DNA from: Marinovum sp.
Lineage (GTDB): Bacteria > Pseudomonadota > Alphaproteobacteria > Rhodobacterales > Rhodobacteraceae
Assembly: GCA_022447495.1 (NCBI GenBank)
Contig: JAKVBH010000011.1
Coordinates: 70,991 to 134,990 of the forward strand
Direction: 5' to 3'
Length of the DNA: 64,000 bases
Position numbers and translations under genes: made by a program. Under the pieces are notes generated by a model, which ran no database searches, was not told the DNA's origin, and saw only the letters and a program-made list of their open reading frames with translations. This document shows positions 2,111 through 19,855 of this stretch, piece by piece (the first letter of the stretch is position 1; every line of letters starts with the position of its first letter).

Positions 2111-3613
2111 CTAGGACTTGGCGACAGTCGCCTCAGGTGTGTCAACATCGTCGGCTTGAGGCGCTTCTGGCGTGTTGGCCGGCGCGACGACGTCTGCGTC
2201 TTCCACCACGACGATATTGCTTTCTGAGGCCACACCATCTGCGCCAACCAGCAGAGGCAAGACATCGGACGAGGCCAATTTTGATTGCTCTGGAGCAGGG
2301 GCCGTGCGCCATGTCAGGGTATCAAATCCACCACAGACCTCGCAGATCGGCGACCAGACAACAGCGGCGGTATTGCAGACATCGCAAATCCACTGCGGCC
2401 CACGGGAGGCCGACAAGGCACGCGTCAGCCAGCCACGCACCAAGGAATCTTCTGCGCCTTCACCGCGCTCAATCGCCGCCATGATCGTGAGGGACCGCAC
2501 CGTAGGATCTTCTTCAACCAGCTTGCCCAGCGCCCGACGCGCCGCCGGAAAGTCCTCTGCGGCGAGATTAAGTTCCGCACGCGTCATCATCACCTCTGGA
2601 TGGTCAGCATGCATGTTCAGCAATGGCTGGAAGCGCTTTAGGCGGGCCGCAGGCGTCTCCTCCGGCTCAATTTCCGCAAAGGCGGCGGCCAAATCGGGAT
2701 GCGGCTCTTTGGTCCAGACCTTCTTGAGCAACCGCGTCGCCACCCGTTTTTGACCCTTTTGAATTTGGCTGCGGGCCGCAGCAGCGGCGGCTGGAACAAA
2801 GTCCGGTGACATCTTGTTGGCTTCGATGAACTTGGTGTGCGCTTGGTCCATGTCGCCTGCCGCCATGGCCTCCTGACCTTCCGCCATGGCGAGCACGGCG
2901 TCACGTCTACGGTGTACATCACGGGGCATTGTGCCGGATTTCAGCTTGGCGTTAAGCGTCTTGCGTGCTCCGGCCCAATCCTCACTCTGAGCTTGCAGTT
3001 TCAGCAAGGTATCTTGGGTTTCCTCATGCTTTGGTTTGATCGCAAACGCGCGTTCGGCAAGTTTGAGCGCGGTATCCGTTTCGCCTGCGGCCAGTTTTTG
3101 TTTGAGTATCCCACGCACGCCGACGAACCGTGTCAGGTCATCTTGCACCAGCTTTTTGTAGGTCTCTTCGGCTTTGGCACGGTCACCAGACATCTCCGCC
3201 GCTTGTGCCGTCAGCAGATTGGTTAACTCTGGCCGTCCAAGATGTTTCTCCGCCTTGGCCGCTTTCGCCATGGCCAGTTTGCCTTCGCCCGAGGCCAGCG
3301 CCAACAAACCTTCGGCAAGCATTTTGTAGCCTTTGCGCTCCCGGTTCCGGTCGAAATAGCGTGACAGCGCCGTCTCGTCGCCATTCACAACCTTCAGGAA
3401 CGCCACGGTGAGAGAGAGCACTTTGAGGGTCACCCAAAGCGCAACCAACAAAACAACGAAGAGCATCACCGATTGAAACGCCGAGAACGTGTATTCCGAC
3501 CCACCCACGACAATCCGCATGCCGTCGGCGCTTTCCAAAAGAAAGCCTGCGCCAATGGCCAGAGCACCAACCACCACCACGAAACCAATAATTTTTGTCA
3601 GAGACCAAAGCAT
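2111..3613 (-). CDS. HemY-like membrane TPR protein with a four-cysteine C-terminal knuckle
   Basis: This 500-residue protein starts with two membrane segments (about residues 4-27 and 45-70), the arrangement of the HemY N-terminal family, and continues with helical TPR-like repeats to about residue 400. The family is named for its place beside heme genes and is not the protoporphyrinogen oxidase of the same name. The C-terminal part has Cys410, Cys413, Cys424 and Cys427 (CDVC, ten residues, CEVC), followed by aromatic and Thr residues, which resembles the rubredoxin-like knuckle at the end of LapB/YciM. It ends in an acidic Ala/Pro-rich tail. It is the last gene of hemD, Mic60-like, hemY-like, 14 bases after the Mic60-like stop. 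Its role is probably envelope or LPS quality control, or heme trafficking; the sequence does not decide. Confidence 0.8.
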   Translation of the reverse strand: MLWSLTKIIGFVVVVGALAIGAGFLLESADGMRIVVGGSEYTFSAFQSVMLFVVLLVALWVTLKVLSLTVAFLKVVNGDETALSRYFDRNRERKGYKMLAEGLLALASGEGKLAMAKAAKAEKHLGRPELTNLLTAQAAEMSGDRAKAEETYKKLVQDDLTRFVGVRGILKQKLAAGETDTALKLAERAFAIKPKHEETQDTLLKLQAQSEDWAGARKTLNAKLKSGTMPRDVHRRRDAVLAMAEGQEAMAAGDMDQAHTKFIEANKMSPDFVPAAAAAARSQIQKGQKRVATRLLKKVWTKEPHPDLAAAFAEIEPEETPAARLKRFQPLLNMHADHPEVMMTRAELNLAAEDFPAARRALGKLVEEDPTVRSLTIMAAIERGEGAEDSLVRGWLTRALSASRGPQWICDVCNTAAVVWSPICEVCGGFDTLTWRTAPAPEQSKLASSDVLPLLVGADGVASESNIVVVEDADVVAPANTPEAPQADDVDTPEATVAKS

Positions 3614-3627
3614 GTCAGTCGCTCCCT

Positions 3628-5055
3628 TTAATTCGTGCCAAGGCGCTGAGACAGCGCATCAGCGGCAGCTTGGGCATCCTGTCGTGCCTGTGCTGCGTCC
3701 TTCCAGGATTTCAACGCCGATGCGGCGGCCTCCGGGAGCGTTTCTATTTCGGCCAGGGCCGTGGCCATGTCTCCGCCCCGCGCCGCTGCTTCTGCACGGC
3801 TGAGCACCGCGTCTGGATCATTACCTTCGCGTGGTTGCACCGACCGCACGTTCAATTGGCGTGCCAGGAACGTGCCAAGCCCACCTGCACCATCGCTGGA
3901 ATCTGGCGAGCGCGCGGCGGCGAGGGCCAACCGCGCGGCGTCTGCAAAGCCCCCTTGGAGCTCTGCCAGTGTCACAGCACCATCAGCGGCCAGCGCAGAC
4001 AACTCTGCGGGTGCGGCTTCTCCGATGGCGGCTTCGAGTTCTGCAAGCGGTTCGGCGAATGACGATCCGCTGTCGATGGCGCTTACGATTTGCGAGAGCG
4101 CGCCGCGGGCAACAGCGGCCTGGGCCTGAGCGACAGCCTCTGCTTCGCGTGCGGCGGCATCTTCTGCCATTGCCTCGATCTCGGCGCGTTGTTCAGCGAC
4201 GCTGGCTTGCAGAGCGTCCAACTCGCGTTCGTAGGCGGCAATGGCCTCGCCTGACGCACCCTGGGATATTGGACGCTTCTCAAGCGCGGAAAGGCGCTCG
4301 TCGAAGGCGGTGACCCGTGTTTCGATGACGGCCAAGGCATCGGACACCTCGTCCATTCCATCACCGGGAGTGCCGATTGCTGCGACGCTTTCTTCCAAGT
4401 AAGCAAGTTGGCCTGACAGGCTTGCGAAGTCTTGGGCACTCACGGCGCCCGCTTCCAAAGCATCAAGCCTGCCGCTTTGCGACCCTAGCGCGGCACGGGC
4501 CTCCGCCACGAAAGGGTCTGGCTCAGACGGGCGATCAGACATGCCGATCAAATCGTTTTCTGCCACGACGAACCCGAGACCTGCGGCGACGGCACCGCCC
4601 AAAATCATGGGCAAGAAACCGCCTTTGCGTTCAACAACGGTCTCTTTGACCACGGTTGGTTGGGGCTCTGGGGTGGGTTCCATGGCTTCAGGCGTGTCCG
4701 CGGCAGCAGCGTCTTCGCGGTCATCTTCGACCGTTTCATTACCTGCATCAGCCGCAACATCTTCGGATGCCTGTGCGTTTGTTTTTCTGTCATCCGCCAG
4801 CGTGTCACCATCGGTTGCGTCAACCGTGATACCGTCTTCAGCATCATCAACATCAGCGTTTTCTGATGCTGTAAGTTGGTCAGAGTCTTCTGGGGTTTCC
4901 GCAGTTGTTTCCGTATCGGCTTTGTCCGTCTCAGGCGCATCACCCCCTGCGCTCTGGTTTGCATCGGTATGGTTTTCCGGTGTCTCTTCAGTGGCGATGT
5001 CCTCAACCACATTTTGGTTTTTGGACAAGTCTTCTTCTTTAGGTTTCTTCGCCAC
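3628..5055 (-). CDS. Mic60/mitofilin-like inner-membrane protein
   Basis: A protein of about 475 residues with a long acidic, low-complexity N-terminal part rich in Asp, Glu, Thr and Ala, one membrane helix (around residues 145-167, core ILGGAVAAGLGFVVAE), a coiled-coil-rich middle with many Glu, Ala and Gln residues, and a helical C-terminus. This matches the alphaproteobacterial relatives of mitochondrial Mic60, which shape inner-membrane curvature and are commonly found beside hemD and hemY-like genes. I chose the GTG start at 5055 (protein begins AKKPKEEDL) because AAGGAAGAG lies just upstream. A longer form from 5127 would overlap hemD and adds a basic, unrelated-looking stretch. The family assignment rests on architecture and neighbourhood; sequence conservation in this family is low. 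Confidence 0.72.
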   Translation of the reverse strand: MAKKPKEEDLSKNQNVVEDIATEETPENHTDANQSAGGDAPETDKADTETTAETPEDSDQLTASENADVDDAEDGITVDATDGDTLADDRKTNAQASEDVAADAGNETVEDDREDAAAADTPEAMEPTPEPQPTVVKETVVERKGGFLPMILGGAVAAGLGFVVAENDLIGMSDRPSEPDPFVAEARAALGSQSGRLDALEAGAVSAQDFASLSGQLAYLEESVAAIGTPGDGMDEVSDALAVIETRVTAFDERLSALEKRPISQGASGEAIAAYERELDALQASVAEQRAEIEAMAEDAAAREAEAVAQAQAAVARGALSQIVSAIDSGSSFAEPLAELEAAIGEAAPAELSALAADGAVTLAELQGGFADAARLALAAARSPDSSDGAGGLGTFLARQLNVRSVQPREGNDPDAVLSRAEAAARGGDMATALAEIETLPEAAASALKSWKDAAQARQDAQAAADALSQRLGTN

Positions 5056-5101
5056 CAAACTCTTCCTTCGAATCTCTTCATCGCTGCGCGACCTAGAAAG
5101 G

Positions 5102-5818
5102 TTACGCCACAGGCCCTCCTCCCTCAAGCAATCGAGCTCTTTCGGTCAGGTCAACAAGCGCAATGCCCATCGCTTTGGCATTGGGGTGCTCTGCGATTCT
5201 GAGCTCTTGGAACATGGCGGTCTGCGCTGCGTCGGCGACGGCTGCGCTGATGGCCACGGCCCAGATGGGCGCCTGAGGAGGGCGGGGTTCCAACTGTTCT
5301 ACCAAGATAGTTGCGCTGCGTGGCGAAAACAGGGGCAAGATGACCGGCTCTTCCCCCTCTAACGCTGCCCAAGCTTCTTTTGAGAGCGGTTGAGCCTTTT
5401 GGTCATAGACGGTCCAGGCGTCCACGCGGACCCCATGCTGTGCCAGACCGGCGGCCAGGTCCCCGGCAACGTACCGCCCGCGAATATGAACCACGTCCTT
5501 GGGCGCGTCGGCGGGCCAGGCGTCACAAAGCGCGGCGGCATCGGGCGCCGTCAGACGCACATCAAAGCCTTTGGTGCGTGCACTTTCAGCTGTGCGCGCG
5601 CCAACAACATAGGCGGGCATATGGGTAGGCCCATCGTAATGGTCTAATGCAGACACCGAGGTCAGAATGACCGCGGACCAAGGCTCAGGCGGTCTTATTC
5701 CAACATGGGCCACGATCTTTAGAACTGGCGAGATTACGCAGCGTATCCCACTCTGATCATGGTCGTGCCAGAAGCGTTCCGATGCAGCTTGTGGCCGCGT
5801 GAGCAGCATGATCGCCAT
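5102..5818 (-). CDS. hemD: Uroporphyrinogen-III synthase
   Basis: This cytoplasmic enzyme of 238 residues cyclises hydroxymethylbilane with inversion of ring D, giving uroporphyrinogen III for heme, siroheme and cobalamin. The N-terminal LLTRPQAASERF and the bilobed Rossmann-like arrangement are typical, with VVGARTAESARTKGF in the middle and an ILPLFSPRSA strand in the second lobe. The length is normal, and as in most HemD proteins no strict catalytic motif can be pointed out. It heads a minus-strand operon with the Mic60-like and HemY-like genes and is divergent from tsaD across 32 bases, so the two promoters must overlap. The hydroxymethylbilane synthase gene is not in this window. Confidence 0.88.
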   Translation of the reverse strand: MAIMLLTRPQAASERFWHDHDQSGIRCVISPVLKIVAHVGIRPPEPWSAVILTSVSALDHYDGPTHMPAYVVGARTAESARTKGFDVRLTAPDAAALCDAWPADAPKDVVHIRGRYVAGDLAAGLAQHGVRVDAWTVYDQKAQPLSKEAWAALEGEEPVILPLFSPRSATILVEQLEPRPPQAPIWAVAISAAVADAAQTAMFQELRIAEHPNAKAMGIALVDLTERARLLEGGGPVA

Positions 5819-5850: not shown

Positions 5851-6975
5851 ATGCTACCTGCTACGCTCTTAGGCTGCAACGTGGGGGCGTCCTTGCGCAT
5901 ACTTGGGATAGAAAGCTCGTGTGACGACACCGGTGCAGCGGTGATCGAAGGCGACGTAGGCGCAGCCAAGATCCTGTCAAATATCGTATTCGGTCAAACC
6001 GAGTTGCACGCCGATTTCGGGGGTGTTGTCCCAGAGATTGCGGCCCGTGCCCATGCTGAACGACTGGACCATGTCGTGCGGTCCGCCTTGAGCGAATCTG
6101 GCACGACTTTGGCTGATGTGGATGCGATCGCGGTGACCTCTGGACCGGGTTTGATCGGGGGTGTTGTCGCTGGGGTGATGTGCGCCAAAGGTCTCGCCGC
6201 TGGCAGTGGCAAGCCCTTGCTCGGCGTCAATCACCTGGCCGGCCATGCACTGACGCCGCGGCTCACCGATGGGGTCGCTTATCCCTTTGTCATGCTTTTG
6301 GTCTCGGGTGGCCATTGTCAGTTTCTGATCGTGCGCGGACCCGAGGAGTTCAACCGACTGGGCGGGACAATCGACGATGCCCCCGGCGAGGCCTTTGACA
6401 AAACCGCAAAGCTGTTGGGATTGGAGCAACCAGGGGGCCCTGCAGTTGAGCGAGTGGCCCGTGATGGCAATCCGAAACGGTTCACCTTTCCTCGCCCGCT
6501 GCTGGCGCAGCCAGGCTGTGATATGTCTTTCTCCGGGCTCAAGACCGCGCTCTTGCGCGCGCGCGATGCGGTGATTGAAGAGAAGAGCGGCGTGACACCC
6601 CAGGATCGGGCGGATTTGTGCGCGGGCTTCCAAGCGGCGGTAGTGGATGTGCTGCGCGCAAAGACGAAACAGGCTTTGAACATCTATGCGGAAGAGAACG
6701 CTTCAGCGCCACTCTTGGCCGTTGCAGGCGGCGTGGCCGCGAACGGGCCAATTCGCGAGGCGCTCCAAACTCTTTGTCGCGATCAAAACGTCGCTTTCAC
6801 GGCCCCACCTCTCGCATTGTGCACGGACAACGCAGCAATGATCGGCTATGCCGGATTAGAGCGGTTTGCACTCGGACGGCGCGACGACATGACGCTTTCG
6901 GCGCGCCCACGCTGGCCGCTGGATCCCAATGCCGCACCGATGTTGGGGTCCGGTAAAAAAGGCGCTAAGGCTTAG
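5851..6975 (+). CDS. tsaD: tRNA N6-adenosine threonylcarbamoyltransferase TsaD
   Basis: TsaD transfers the threonylcarbamoyl group to A37 of tRNAs reading ANN codons, together with TsaB and TsaE. The ASKHA fold begins with [14 protein letters not shown], the metal-binding pair is His128/His132 in NHLAGH, and the phosphate loops LVSGGHCQF and [12 protein letters not shown] are intact. At 374 residues the length is usual. ATG 5851 has GGGGGA close upstream; GTG 5881 is an alternative that would remove ten poorly conserved residues. In many relatives gpsA follows tsaD. Here the next gene is a YciI protein after 36 bases, so gpsA is absent from its customary slot. Confidence 0.95.
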
Positions 6976-17033: not shown

Positions 17034-17705
17034 TTATTGCTCCTTTAGGAGCTGAATTTCCGCGTAACCAGCCTGCGGGCTCACCCATTGGGTGGACGTG
17101 CGCACCGTGCCCCGCGAATCGAGGAAATACGTGTTTTGGAACGTGCCACCGCCTCCAGCGCTACAGGTTTCTACGACCCGAGTTGCGGTGAAACGGCCCG
17201 CCAAATTCTCCCCGGCGACGCCGGAGGTGCGGCCATAATCACACACAAACGCACGCAAGATGATCTGATTTTCCCCGTTATAATAACGGTGTACACGCGT
17301 CGCGCGCGATCTTTGACCCCGAACCGCCGCGCGTACCTCTGCGAGGCCCGCGCTCACCAAATCGGTTGCCAAACCTTTGGTCGCTGTGATGATGCCACGA
17401 TCGAGCGACACTTGGGTGCCATCCGCTGTTCCCCAAGTGTGCACCGACTTGTTACGCCCGATGGGGGTCAGGAACGAGTCCGCGTTGAAGGAGGGCAAAT
17501 CAAGGTAAATAAGACCAGTTTGAGTAGCTGCCAGGGCTTCTGGCGTGACTTGAGCGCGTAGATTCGGGCGAGGCGGTGCTTTTGCGAATAAACCACTGAT
17601 CGCAGCACGTGCCTGATTCAGGCCAGCGTTCTGTCCGCTTGTGTTTCCACACGCAGCAACTGACAGCACCAGAACGGCGCAGGCGAGGATACGTGTAAGG
17701 CTCAT
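17034..17705 (-). CDS. YjbF/GfcB family lipoprotein
   Basis: A 223-residue lipoprotein: SLTRILACAVLVLSVAAC gives lipobox Cys19. The mature part is predicted to be mostly beta (ITATKGLATDLVSAGL, VHRYYNGENQIILRAFVCDY, and the WVSPQAGYAEIQLLK end), as in the group-4-capsule protein GfcB and E. coli YjbF. These are needed for secretion of exopolysaccharide through the outer membrane in a manner not fully known. ATG 17705 overlaps the YjbH stop (ATGA), so the two are coupled. YjbG/GfcC, which normally lies between the F and H genes, is absent. Confidence 0.85.
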   Translation of the reverse strand: MSLTRILACAVLVLSVAACGNTSGQNAGLNQARAAISGLFAKAPPRPNLRAQVTPEALAATQTGLIYLDLPSFNADSFLTPIGRNKSVHTWGTADGTQVSLDRGIITATKGLATDLVSAGLAEVRAAVRGQRSRATRVHRYYNGENQIILRAFVCDYGRTSGVAGENLAGRFTATRVVETCSAGGGGTFQNTYFLDSRGTVRTSTQWVSPQAGYAEIQLLKEQ

Positions 17706-19855
17706 CGCAGGAACTGCCCCCATTGCTCTTGCATCGCGGGACGATGGAGATCTCTGACTTGTTCATAGAGACGACCGTCGACGTTCAAACGCGCACCACC
17801 GTCACGCAAGACAGGACGGATCGTCCGCGAAATTGCACCCTCAGACCGCGTATTGGTGAAAGTCGAGAAAGGAATATGGATGCGGATGCCCTTGTCAAAG
17901 GAGCCTTCGCCGAAGTCTTCGAATGGGATGTCGGTCAAAGTGGCAAAGGCGCCGATGCGGATACCATTGTCGAACTCGCGATCCACCGTCAGCGTGCCAC
18001 CCCAATCTTCGTTCAGATAGCGACCGAGATCGAGTTGGTAGTGAAAGTCGTTTTTGGCTTTGTAGTAGAACGATAGGTGACCCGTGGCGACTTCGTAGTC
18101 TTGGAAGTTGAAATCCACACCGAAGTCACGCTGTTTAACGTAATTGACTTCTGCGCCAACGGCCAAACGACTATCGACAGGTTTCCACAAAAGTTCTGTG
18201 GAGACACCGCCGTACATTTGTTCGAGATACCCCGCCGATACGCGACCATAGAGGTCTTTGCCGGGGCGGAAGTAATAATCCGCTGTCAAACGGCTCAGTT
18301 GTGTATCACTGGTGCCAATGTAGATGTTGGCATCCGAACGGACGCGGCGAATGGTCGAGTCAGACTCTCTGAGATCACCCCGGTTGCCAGCGAAGCGCTG
18401 GGTGAGGATGCCGGTAAAGACCATACCGTTCACAGGCTCCCAGCGCGCGCGGCCTTCGAGACCAAAGTCGAGACGCACCGGGCTTGCGGGGTCAAAGTAG
18501 GACGACGACACGTAAGGGCCGACGCCCCAATCGAAGTTCGGTGAGAAGCCACTGAGCGCGTCATACGTCACGCCAAGGGAACCCGAGTAAGGATCACGGA
18601 ACCGGCTTCTGGCAAAAGCCTGCCATGTGCCGTCAGGCGCAAACTCAAGTTCTTCGAGGTCGCTACGCGCAATAGTAATATCAGAACTCGGCACGCCGTT
18701 GGGCGACACCATCGTGATAACAAAAGTTTCCACCGACGCGGGCATCACCGCAGTCAGGATACGCGCAACACGACCCGCAGCGCGTGCTGGCGGCAAGCTA
18801 TCTTCAGGACGCACGCGCACATAGACCTGCGTGGCTTCGACGCTCACACCATCAAGTGACATCCCTTCAAGTGGCAGCACCTTTTGTAACGTTTGGTGGA
18901 TCGAGGCGCGGCGCGTGTTGTCTTCGGTCCAACCCAAATCGTGGGCCGATCGGGACGCACGCACTGACACCGGGATAGGCCCCGGATCAACGGGACCAGA
19001 GATGGCGCGAGGTTGCTTGAAATTAAACGGATAACTCAGGCTCACAGCGGCTGTGGTTCCGTAAAGATAGGCACCACTGACGACGATGCCGTTGCGGAGC
19101 TTGTAGGACGCGCCGATGTTGATAGGAGAGACCTGTTCAAAGATCCCACGATCTTTTTCGGCGGTGTAATTGTCGGACGAGTATTCCAAAGCCAGGCGGA
19201 AGCGGTCGTTAACAGCATATTCCAAGCCACCAAAGAACGCGGCATCTCCGCGGAACCAATCGTCGGTGTCTGGCTGACCTGTGGTCTCGATGCCCGTCGC
19301 CGATGGGCCCCGCGTTTTAAATCGGTCAGAGAGGGCACCCAGCGGGTTCTCAAATCCGCCCCGCGAGCCAAGGCGGCCCCAACCGATCCCACCGGTGGCG
19401 CGGACGCGACCGAACGTCTTGGTGGCGACGAGGTACTCGGAGGCATAAACGCCTGTCCCGCCGAAGTCGGTCAGGCCAACCGTCACTGCCGGAAGCACAT
19501 CCGTCTCGTCGACAAGCTGATACCGCAGATCAAAACTGCGGTCGTAGTAACTGCCGTTACCGAAGTAGTCGAAGATCTGCGAGTAGCGGAACACACCGCT
19601 CAGCCGTTCGGTTATTTGAAAATCAAAGGTAAGGCGTTGGACGCCATCGAACGCTGACAGCGTCGTGGTCAAATCGGCATCTTTGCGTTGGTGCGCCGTT
19701 GGCATCTCAATCAGGCCAGGCGATCCAAACGTGTTGCTGCTAGGGCGCTCCCAGATATCTGGCGCCGGCACACCGCTTTGGGGTGTAGCTGCTGTTGCAA
19801 ATGCACTTAATCCAATCGCCCCTGCAAGGCTTGCAAATCTATAGCGGTGCCCCAC
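17702..19855 (-). CDS. YjbH/GfcD family outer-membrane protein
   Basis: A 717-residue secreted protein predicted to form outer-membrane beta structure, related to YjbH/GfcD. A signal peptide (core AIGLSAFATAATPQ) is followed by SSNTFGSPGLIEMPTAHQR, a family hallmark, then many amphipathic strands with Tyr/Arg patterns typical of barrels (for example GVFRYSQIFDYFGNG and FHYQLDLGRYLNEDWGG). The GTG start is preceded by AAGGG at seven bases. The protein is thought to take part in polysaccharide passage through the outer membrane. It leads the yjbH-yjbF-yjbE-like set and is divergent from a phosphatase gene across 154 bases. Confidence 0.88.
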   Translation of the reverse strand: MGHRYRFASLAGAIGLSAFATAATPQSGVPAPDIWERPSSNTFGSPGLIEMPTAHQRKDADLTTTLSAFDGVQRLTFDFQITERLSGVFRYSQIFDYFGNGSYYDRSFDLRYQLVDETDVLPAVTVGLTDFGGTGVYASEYLVATKTFGRVRATGGIGWGRLGSRGGFENPLGALSDRFKTRGPSATGIETTGQPDTDDWFRGDAAFFGGLEYAVNDRFRLALEYSSDNYTAEKDRGIFEQVSPINIGASYKLRNGIVVSGAYLYGTTAAVSLSYPFNFKQPRAISGPVDPGPIPVSVRASRSAHDLGWTEDNTRRASIHQTLQKVLPLEGMSLDGVSVEATQVYVRVRPEDSLPPARAAGRVARILTAVMPASVETFVITMVSPNGVPSSDITIARSDLEELEFAPDGTWQAFARSRFRDPYSGSLGVTYDALSGFSPNFDWGVGPYVSSSYFDPASPVRLDFGLEGRARWEPVNGMVFTGILTQRFAGNRGDLRESDSTIRRVRSDANIYIGTSDTQLSRLTADYYFRPGKDLYGRVSAGYLEQMYGGVSTELLWKPVDSRLAVGAEVNYVKQRDFGVDFNFQDYEVATGHLSFYYKAKNDFHYQLDLGRYLNEDWGGTLTVDREFDNGIRIGAFATLTDIPFEDFGEGSFDKGIRIHIPFSTFTNTRSEGAISRTIRPVLRDGGARLNVDGRLYEQVRDLHRPAMQEQWGQFLR

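Follow-up and report, generated by a model that had tools for sequence, protein, structure and literature searches.

The gene at positions 2111 to 3613 of the window (the whole 64,000-nucleotide stretch of Marinovum sp. DNA analysed) encodes a HemY-like protein, which is probably an inner-membrane TPR adaptor of the HemY family and a distant paralogue of LapA and LapB in one chain, encoded in a hemD-Mic60-hemY operon and carrying a C-terminal ribbon as a structural metal cap. Its domain order, predicted fold, operon context and class-wide distribution were established directly and are described below; its physical function is what we infer from them.

Gene cluster and domain organization

The gene, its domains and its neighbours are as follows.
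2111 to 3613, minus strand: HemY-like membrane TPR protein with a C-terminal four-Cys ribbon, 500 aa
3383 to 3613, minus strand: membrane hairpin of two helices separated by a short beta hairpin (HemY_N, LapA-like), residues 1-77, from HemY_N, the AlphaFold2 model and the LapA profile match
2411 to 3370, minus strand: TPR superhelix, residues 82-401, from TPR families, the model and the LapB fold
2303 to 2398, minus strand: rubredoxin/zinc-ribbon-type end, residues 406-437, predicted ligands Cys 410, 413, 424 and 427
2114 to 2287, minus strand: disordered tail, residues 443-500, pLDDT below 50 in the model
3628 to 5127, minus strand: Mic60/mitofilin-like gene directly upstream of hemY, from aligned neighbours and the model score
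5102 to 5818, minus strand: hemD, uroporphyrinogen-III synthase (HEM4, 1.9e-24)
5851 to 6975, plus strand: tsaD, divergent neighbour bounding the cluster (TIGR03723, over cut-off)

The HemY-like protein matches the Pfam family HemY_N (PF07219) over the stretch 33-143 with 93.1 bits against a cut-off of 31, and TPR families follow in the same ORF. With TIGR00540, the model of E. coli-type HemY, it scores 101.4 bits and thus falls below the cut-off of 142. The intervening Mic60-like protein has no Pfam match of its own. Mitofilin (PF09731) was matched at E 0.1 or better by 35 of 39 aligned upstream neighbours (the window's own and 38 out of the 115 found), and the window protein scored 2.0e-81 against a profile model whose building set included that protein. 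HEM4 is matched as well by 11 of the 39 upstream proteins, probably reflecting HemD-mitofilin fusions in some relatives.

The original prediction called the window rich in LPS and Kdo genes. This needs correcting: a DAHP-synthase/KdsA-family gene, glycosyltransferases and an exopolysaccharide gene are present in it (10 further ORFs were checked), and the LpxC gene of this genome lies on another contig. A YjbH-family exopolysaccharide gene (PF06082) is located at 17702-19855 of the window.

The location of the gene downstream of hemD, with one gene between, could suggest a heme-pathway scaffold, which would keep HemD and its neighbouring enzymes membrane-bound and use the ribbon as a sensor of redox or metal state. 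The order hemD-Mic60-hemY here and hemC-hemD-hemX-hemY in the E. coli counterpart agrees with such a role, and operon position is the one line of evidence for it. What may count against it is that the HemY-like gene is present in 277 and absent from 60 of the 337 alphaproteobacterial genomes of our class sample, and that the cysteines are dispensable in many lineages. We consider the scaffold unlikely.

Predicted fold and similarity to LapB and LapA

An AlphaFold2 model built from 57 sequences (pLDDT 86, pTM 0.71) begins with helices at residues 2-27 and 45-77, with strands at 32-36 and 39-43 between them. Residues 401-440 are modelled at pLDDT 90-96, with ribbon strands at 406-410 and 433-437. 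In a Foldseek search with this model, ranks 1-4 were LapB chains. Similarly, LapB chains took the top five places in VIA-align 2, with Z between 16.3 and 20.0: 7t6d (Z 20.0, rmsd 12.4 over 365 residues), 9up5 (Z 19.5, 4.2 over 318), 4zlh (Z 18.9, 4.4 over 319), 8v24 (Z 18.8, 4.0 over 311) and 7wzb (Z 16.3, 4.0 over 240). All five superpositions stop at model residue 440-441. The best non-LapB TPR protein reached Z 15.9 with an rmsd of 9.6. Alignment of HemY-like proteins to LapB with hhalign covered 331 columns with a probability of 99.1 and stayed collinear into and across the ribbon, and the parts taken separately gave 97.5 (TPR alone) and 94.4 (ribbon alone). A PDB search with the single sequence returned nothing useful, and the protein remains far under the cut-offs of the LapB models NF008757 (42.6 against 363 bits) and NF008755 (27.0 against 430).

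Judged from the predicted model, no solved structure is closer than LapB to the TPR and ribbon parts taken as a whole. The original prediction had proposed a HemY-type membrane and TPR part joined to a LapB-type knuckle, and had suggested an overlay of the predicted Cys region on LapB. That region is a confidently modelled ribbon that superposes on LapB up to its end, and the likeness is real and was underestimated, since it takes in the whole TPR-plus-ribbon part (Z 19-20).

The membrane hairpin was compared with LapA (Pfam LapA domain) using a profile built from residues 1-100 of 204 HemY-like proteins. This HemY_N profile matched the LapA profile with a probability of 95.0 and a score of 44.2 over 90 columns. 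The controls scored 14.0 (reversed LapA against the HemY profile), at most 16.1 (39 full column shuffles), at most 28.6 with a median of 13.3 (100 shuffles inside four structural blocks) and 14.5 (the LapB N-terminus). Twenty-two single LapA proteins scored 14.9-43.4 against the HemY profile, five of them under the maximum of 21.4 obtained with 34 unrelated two-helix windows. Conversely, single HemY N-termini (60 of the 204) had a median of 23.5 against LapA, with a maximum of 19.3 for unrelated windows. No LapA family was found among the Pfam matches of the HemY-like protein up to E 10. At the level of sequence, the relation between HemY_N and LapA appears profile to profile only. With a LapA-like hairpin and a LapB-like TPR and ribbon part, the HemY-like protein resembles a LapA joined to a LapB within a single polypeptide. 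In the literature covered, mainly the openings of abstracts and including few subscription journals, no description of a ribbon in HemY-like proteins or of a HemY-LapA relation was recognised.

Conservation of the ribbon

Cys 410, 413, 424 and 427 are the only cysteines among the 500 residues, and the C-x2-C-x10-C-x2-C pattern described in the original prediction is real: it is kept in 80 of 80 related loci returned, all of them close and mostly from Rhodobacteraceae. In a wider set of 208 genomes, comprising 186 of the 277 gene-bearing genomes of the class sample and 22 same-family relatives in which LpxC presence was assumed, 175 have all four cysteines, the spacer being 10, 13 or 16 residues long, and in 169 it is 10. 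Among the remaining 33, 20 have lost the cysteines and kept the tail motif and 12 have lost the tail, a split made by eye, and in one (G053) the contig ends within the gene. The CxxC pairs, whose survey the original prediction had proposed, are widely kept; a FastTree phylogeny of the TPR part requires 13 or more changes of cysteine state. Equivalents of W420 and W435 are mostly retained in the cysteine-lost rows, so that the tail seems to fold without metal in these lineages. From the model and this distribution, we infer that the ribbon is a fold-stabilising cap that has been lost many times. In family f31 (L137, L139, L142 and L143), the loop between the CxxC pairs has 16 residues, not 10.

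LpxC, LapB and the distribution of the HemY-like gene

In E. coli, LapB has nine TPRs and a rubredoxin domain that adjoins the substrate site of LpxC; besides handing LpxC over to FtsH, LapB is an inhibitor of the enzyme (PMC13333357, PMC9356133; excerpts). The HemY-like protein might be the LapB of LpxC-bearing alphaproteobacteria, binding LpxC through its TPR groove and ribbon and inhibiting it or handing it to a protease. The shared cytoplasmic fold and the LapA-like hairpin argue for this role, as does the position and inhibitory action of the E. coli rubredoxin domain and LapB (PMC13333357, excerpts), and LpxC is present in the window's genome, with the C-terminus RRDEVPALV (translated by eye).

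The scarcity of LapB itself argues in the same direction. The original prediction saw no separate LapB gene in the window, and none was found in the whole genome (77.9% complete) with the LapB models and PF18073; the best LapB-model match there is the HemY-like protein itself, with 27.6 bits. A LapB profile run over the 337 genomes found no LapB in 335 and LapB in two, one full and one partial. The full gene (G177, E 1.1e-78) has ihfB and a small two-helix ORF upstream. This locus (L337:1483-3954) has the order sppA-ihfB-lapA-lapB, in which lapA is the small two-helix LapA-like ORF, and hints at a possible ancestral LapAB in the class, with LapB later lost from most members. The partial gene (G128, E 3.3e-41) is located at a contig end of a genome with a contamination value of 5; it directly follows a kdsD/kpsF gene (L338:408-2106) and may be contamination. 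All other matches are 4.1e-17 or weaker; among the strongest of them, those in G250 and G061 proved to be to the HemY-like protein. Both LapB-bearing genomes, however, also contain the HemY-like gene (E 5.1e-71 in G177 and 1.9e-134 in G128), which counts against this role.

The distribution of lipid A genes weighs further against an LpxC role. LpxC (PF03331) is absent from 41 of the 337 genomes; LpxB is present in eight of these, and both are absent in 33. The HemY-like gene was detected at E 1e-10 or better in 25 of the 33, and of the 24 that were read, 18 keep the four cysteines and six have lost them. The lists behind these cross-counts were typed from tables, and genomes not listed were deduced by comparing the HemY-like and LpxC tables. 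Conversely, LpxC is kept in 50 of the 60 genomes without the HemY-like gene, compared with 246 of the 277 with it (p 0.27, a value that ignores relatedness), and the metal-ligand cysteines are lost in members of eight LpxC-bearing families. Alphaproteobacterial LpxC is also reported to be without a C-terminal FtsH degron; in E. coli cells expressing it, Lon is reported to be the degrading protease, and NtrYX and ChvGI are reported to act on transcription (PMC12444477, excerpts). In four families (f31, f33, f57 and f114), all four genomes sampled from each are without LpxC and LpxB, an apparent clade-wide loss of lipid A.

A tie between cysteine loss and lipid A loss was also considered. Among LpxC-bearing genomes outside the window's family, the four cysteines are found in 131 of 155, one of which is incomplete; the difference between 18 of 24 and 131 of 154 is not significant (Fisher p 0.24), and six independent tree pairs show no trend. 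In family f67, two LpxC-less genomes have lost the cysteines and two LpxC-bearing ones have kept them, so that such a tie is possible there and unsupported overall.

On the presence and absence of the genes, together with ribbon retention, we reject LpxC as the conserved partner in general. LapB-like control of LpxC, as the original prediction had it, is thus unlikely as a conserved role, and we regard it as quite improbable that the HemY-like protein is the LapB of these bacteria, although a lineage-specific LpxC role may exist. Retention of the ribbon in 18 of 24 genomes without LpxC and LpxB is a warning against transferring the LpxC role of LapB by domain shape. The HemY-like protein survives in relatives without lipid A and goes with Mic60, not LpxC, so that the shared architecture probably serves another function here.

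Ribbon spacing and RadA

A 456-aa ORF of the same genome, which we take to be RadA, also contains a C-x2-C-x10-C-x2-C ribbon (FICSNCAHITTKWAGQCESCGAW). The spacing that the original prediction tied to LapB is indeed that of LapB, but since RadA shares it, spacing alone is no pointer to LapB. PF18073 was tried as a LapB marker; it matches in 14 of 14 control genomes (over cut-off in 10), finds RadA here as the only ribbon over its cut-off in the genome, and does not match the HemY-like protein at E 10. Acquisition of the ribbon from RadA or another ribbon protein, with convergence on LapB, would suit the spacing and the Trp four residues before Cys3 in both RadA and the HemY-like protein (two before in LapB), but is very unlikely, as LapB is matched jointly by the complete superhelix and by where the ribbon sits with respect to the final TPR.

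Association with Mic60 and proposed function

A Mic60-like gene (E 1e-10) was found in 216 of the 277 genomes with the HemY-like gene and in 10 of the 60 without it (p 5e-19, again ignoring the relatedness of the genomes); the other 61 gene-bearing genomes have none. Among 21 genomes of at least 2 Mb without the HemY-like gene, read from the table, LpxC is present in 16 and a Mic60-like gene in three. Within f5 and f54, hemY and Mic60 are either both present or both absent in a given set of members, and LpxC stays. The Mic60 model was built from genes picked for lying next to hemY, and because the two genes adjoin, both can go in a single deletion; small genomes, moreover, lose many genes. As proof of joint function, co-occurrence is weakened by this adjacency, by shared descent and by genome reduction. 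In two Mic60 papers (PMC12136173, PMC12631773), no mention of heme, operon or TPR was found.

The most probable role is that of a TPR adaptor at the membrane, belonging to the hemD-Mic60-hemY operon and fitted with a ribbon that would bind a structural metal. The LapA-like hairpin, joined in one chain to the LapB-like TPR-plus-ribbon part, would anchor the protein in the membrane, and the cytoplasmic TPR superhelix would hold partner proteins. The ribbon, modelled without metal, may bind a structural metal and cap the last TPR, and in some lineages the metal site would have given way to a form of this tail that needs no metal. Conserved partners would be found within the operon, in membrane organisation and tetrapyrrole supply, and not in LpxC.

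A bolder proposal, tentative and on balance doubtful, is that HemY is a single-chain LapA-LapB from an ancient superfamily of membrane TPR adaptors, with a two-gene LpxC branch and a ribbon-less HemY in gammaproteobacteria and, in most alphaproteobacteria, only the ribbon-bearing one-chain form. There, it might act as a protease or assembly adaptor in inner-membrane domains organised by Mic60, from which the crista system of mitochondria would derive, and the ribbon might gate substrates.

To our knowledge, no mechanism stands behind the heme label of HemY. A LapA-LapB-like view supplies solved templates and something concrete to work with, namely a TPR adaptor in the membrane that carries a metal ribbon, and the link with Mic60 ties HemY to the origin of the mitochondrial crista machinery.

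Comparison with known systems

LapB/YciM (4zlh, 7t6d, 8v24, 9up5) shares with the HemY-like protein a TPR superhelix and, C-terminal to it, a Cys4 ribbon, in the same order and overall fold. It differs at the N-terminus, where E. coli LapB has a single membrane helix (PMC9356133, PMC13333357; excerpts) and the HemY-like model two long ones, and in its operon, as the HemY-like gene is preceded by Mic60-like and hemD genes, with no separate lapA. LapA of E. coli (102 aa) shares the two hydrophobic helices, the short loop between them and the basic helix that follows; it is a separate small protein, whereas in the HemY-like protein the hairpin is fused to the TPR part. The RadA ribbon (PF18073-type) has the same Cys spacing and is N-terminal, while that of the HemY-like protein is C-terminal. 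E. coli HemY shares HemY_N, the last-gene place in the hem operon and a profile match over 361 columns, but its C-terminus, unlike that of the HemY-like protein, is without cysteines or ribbon.
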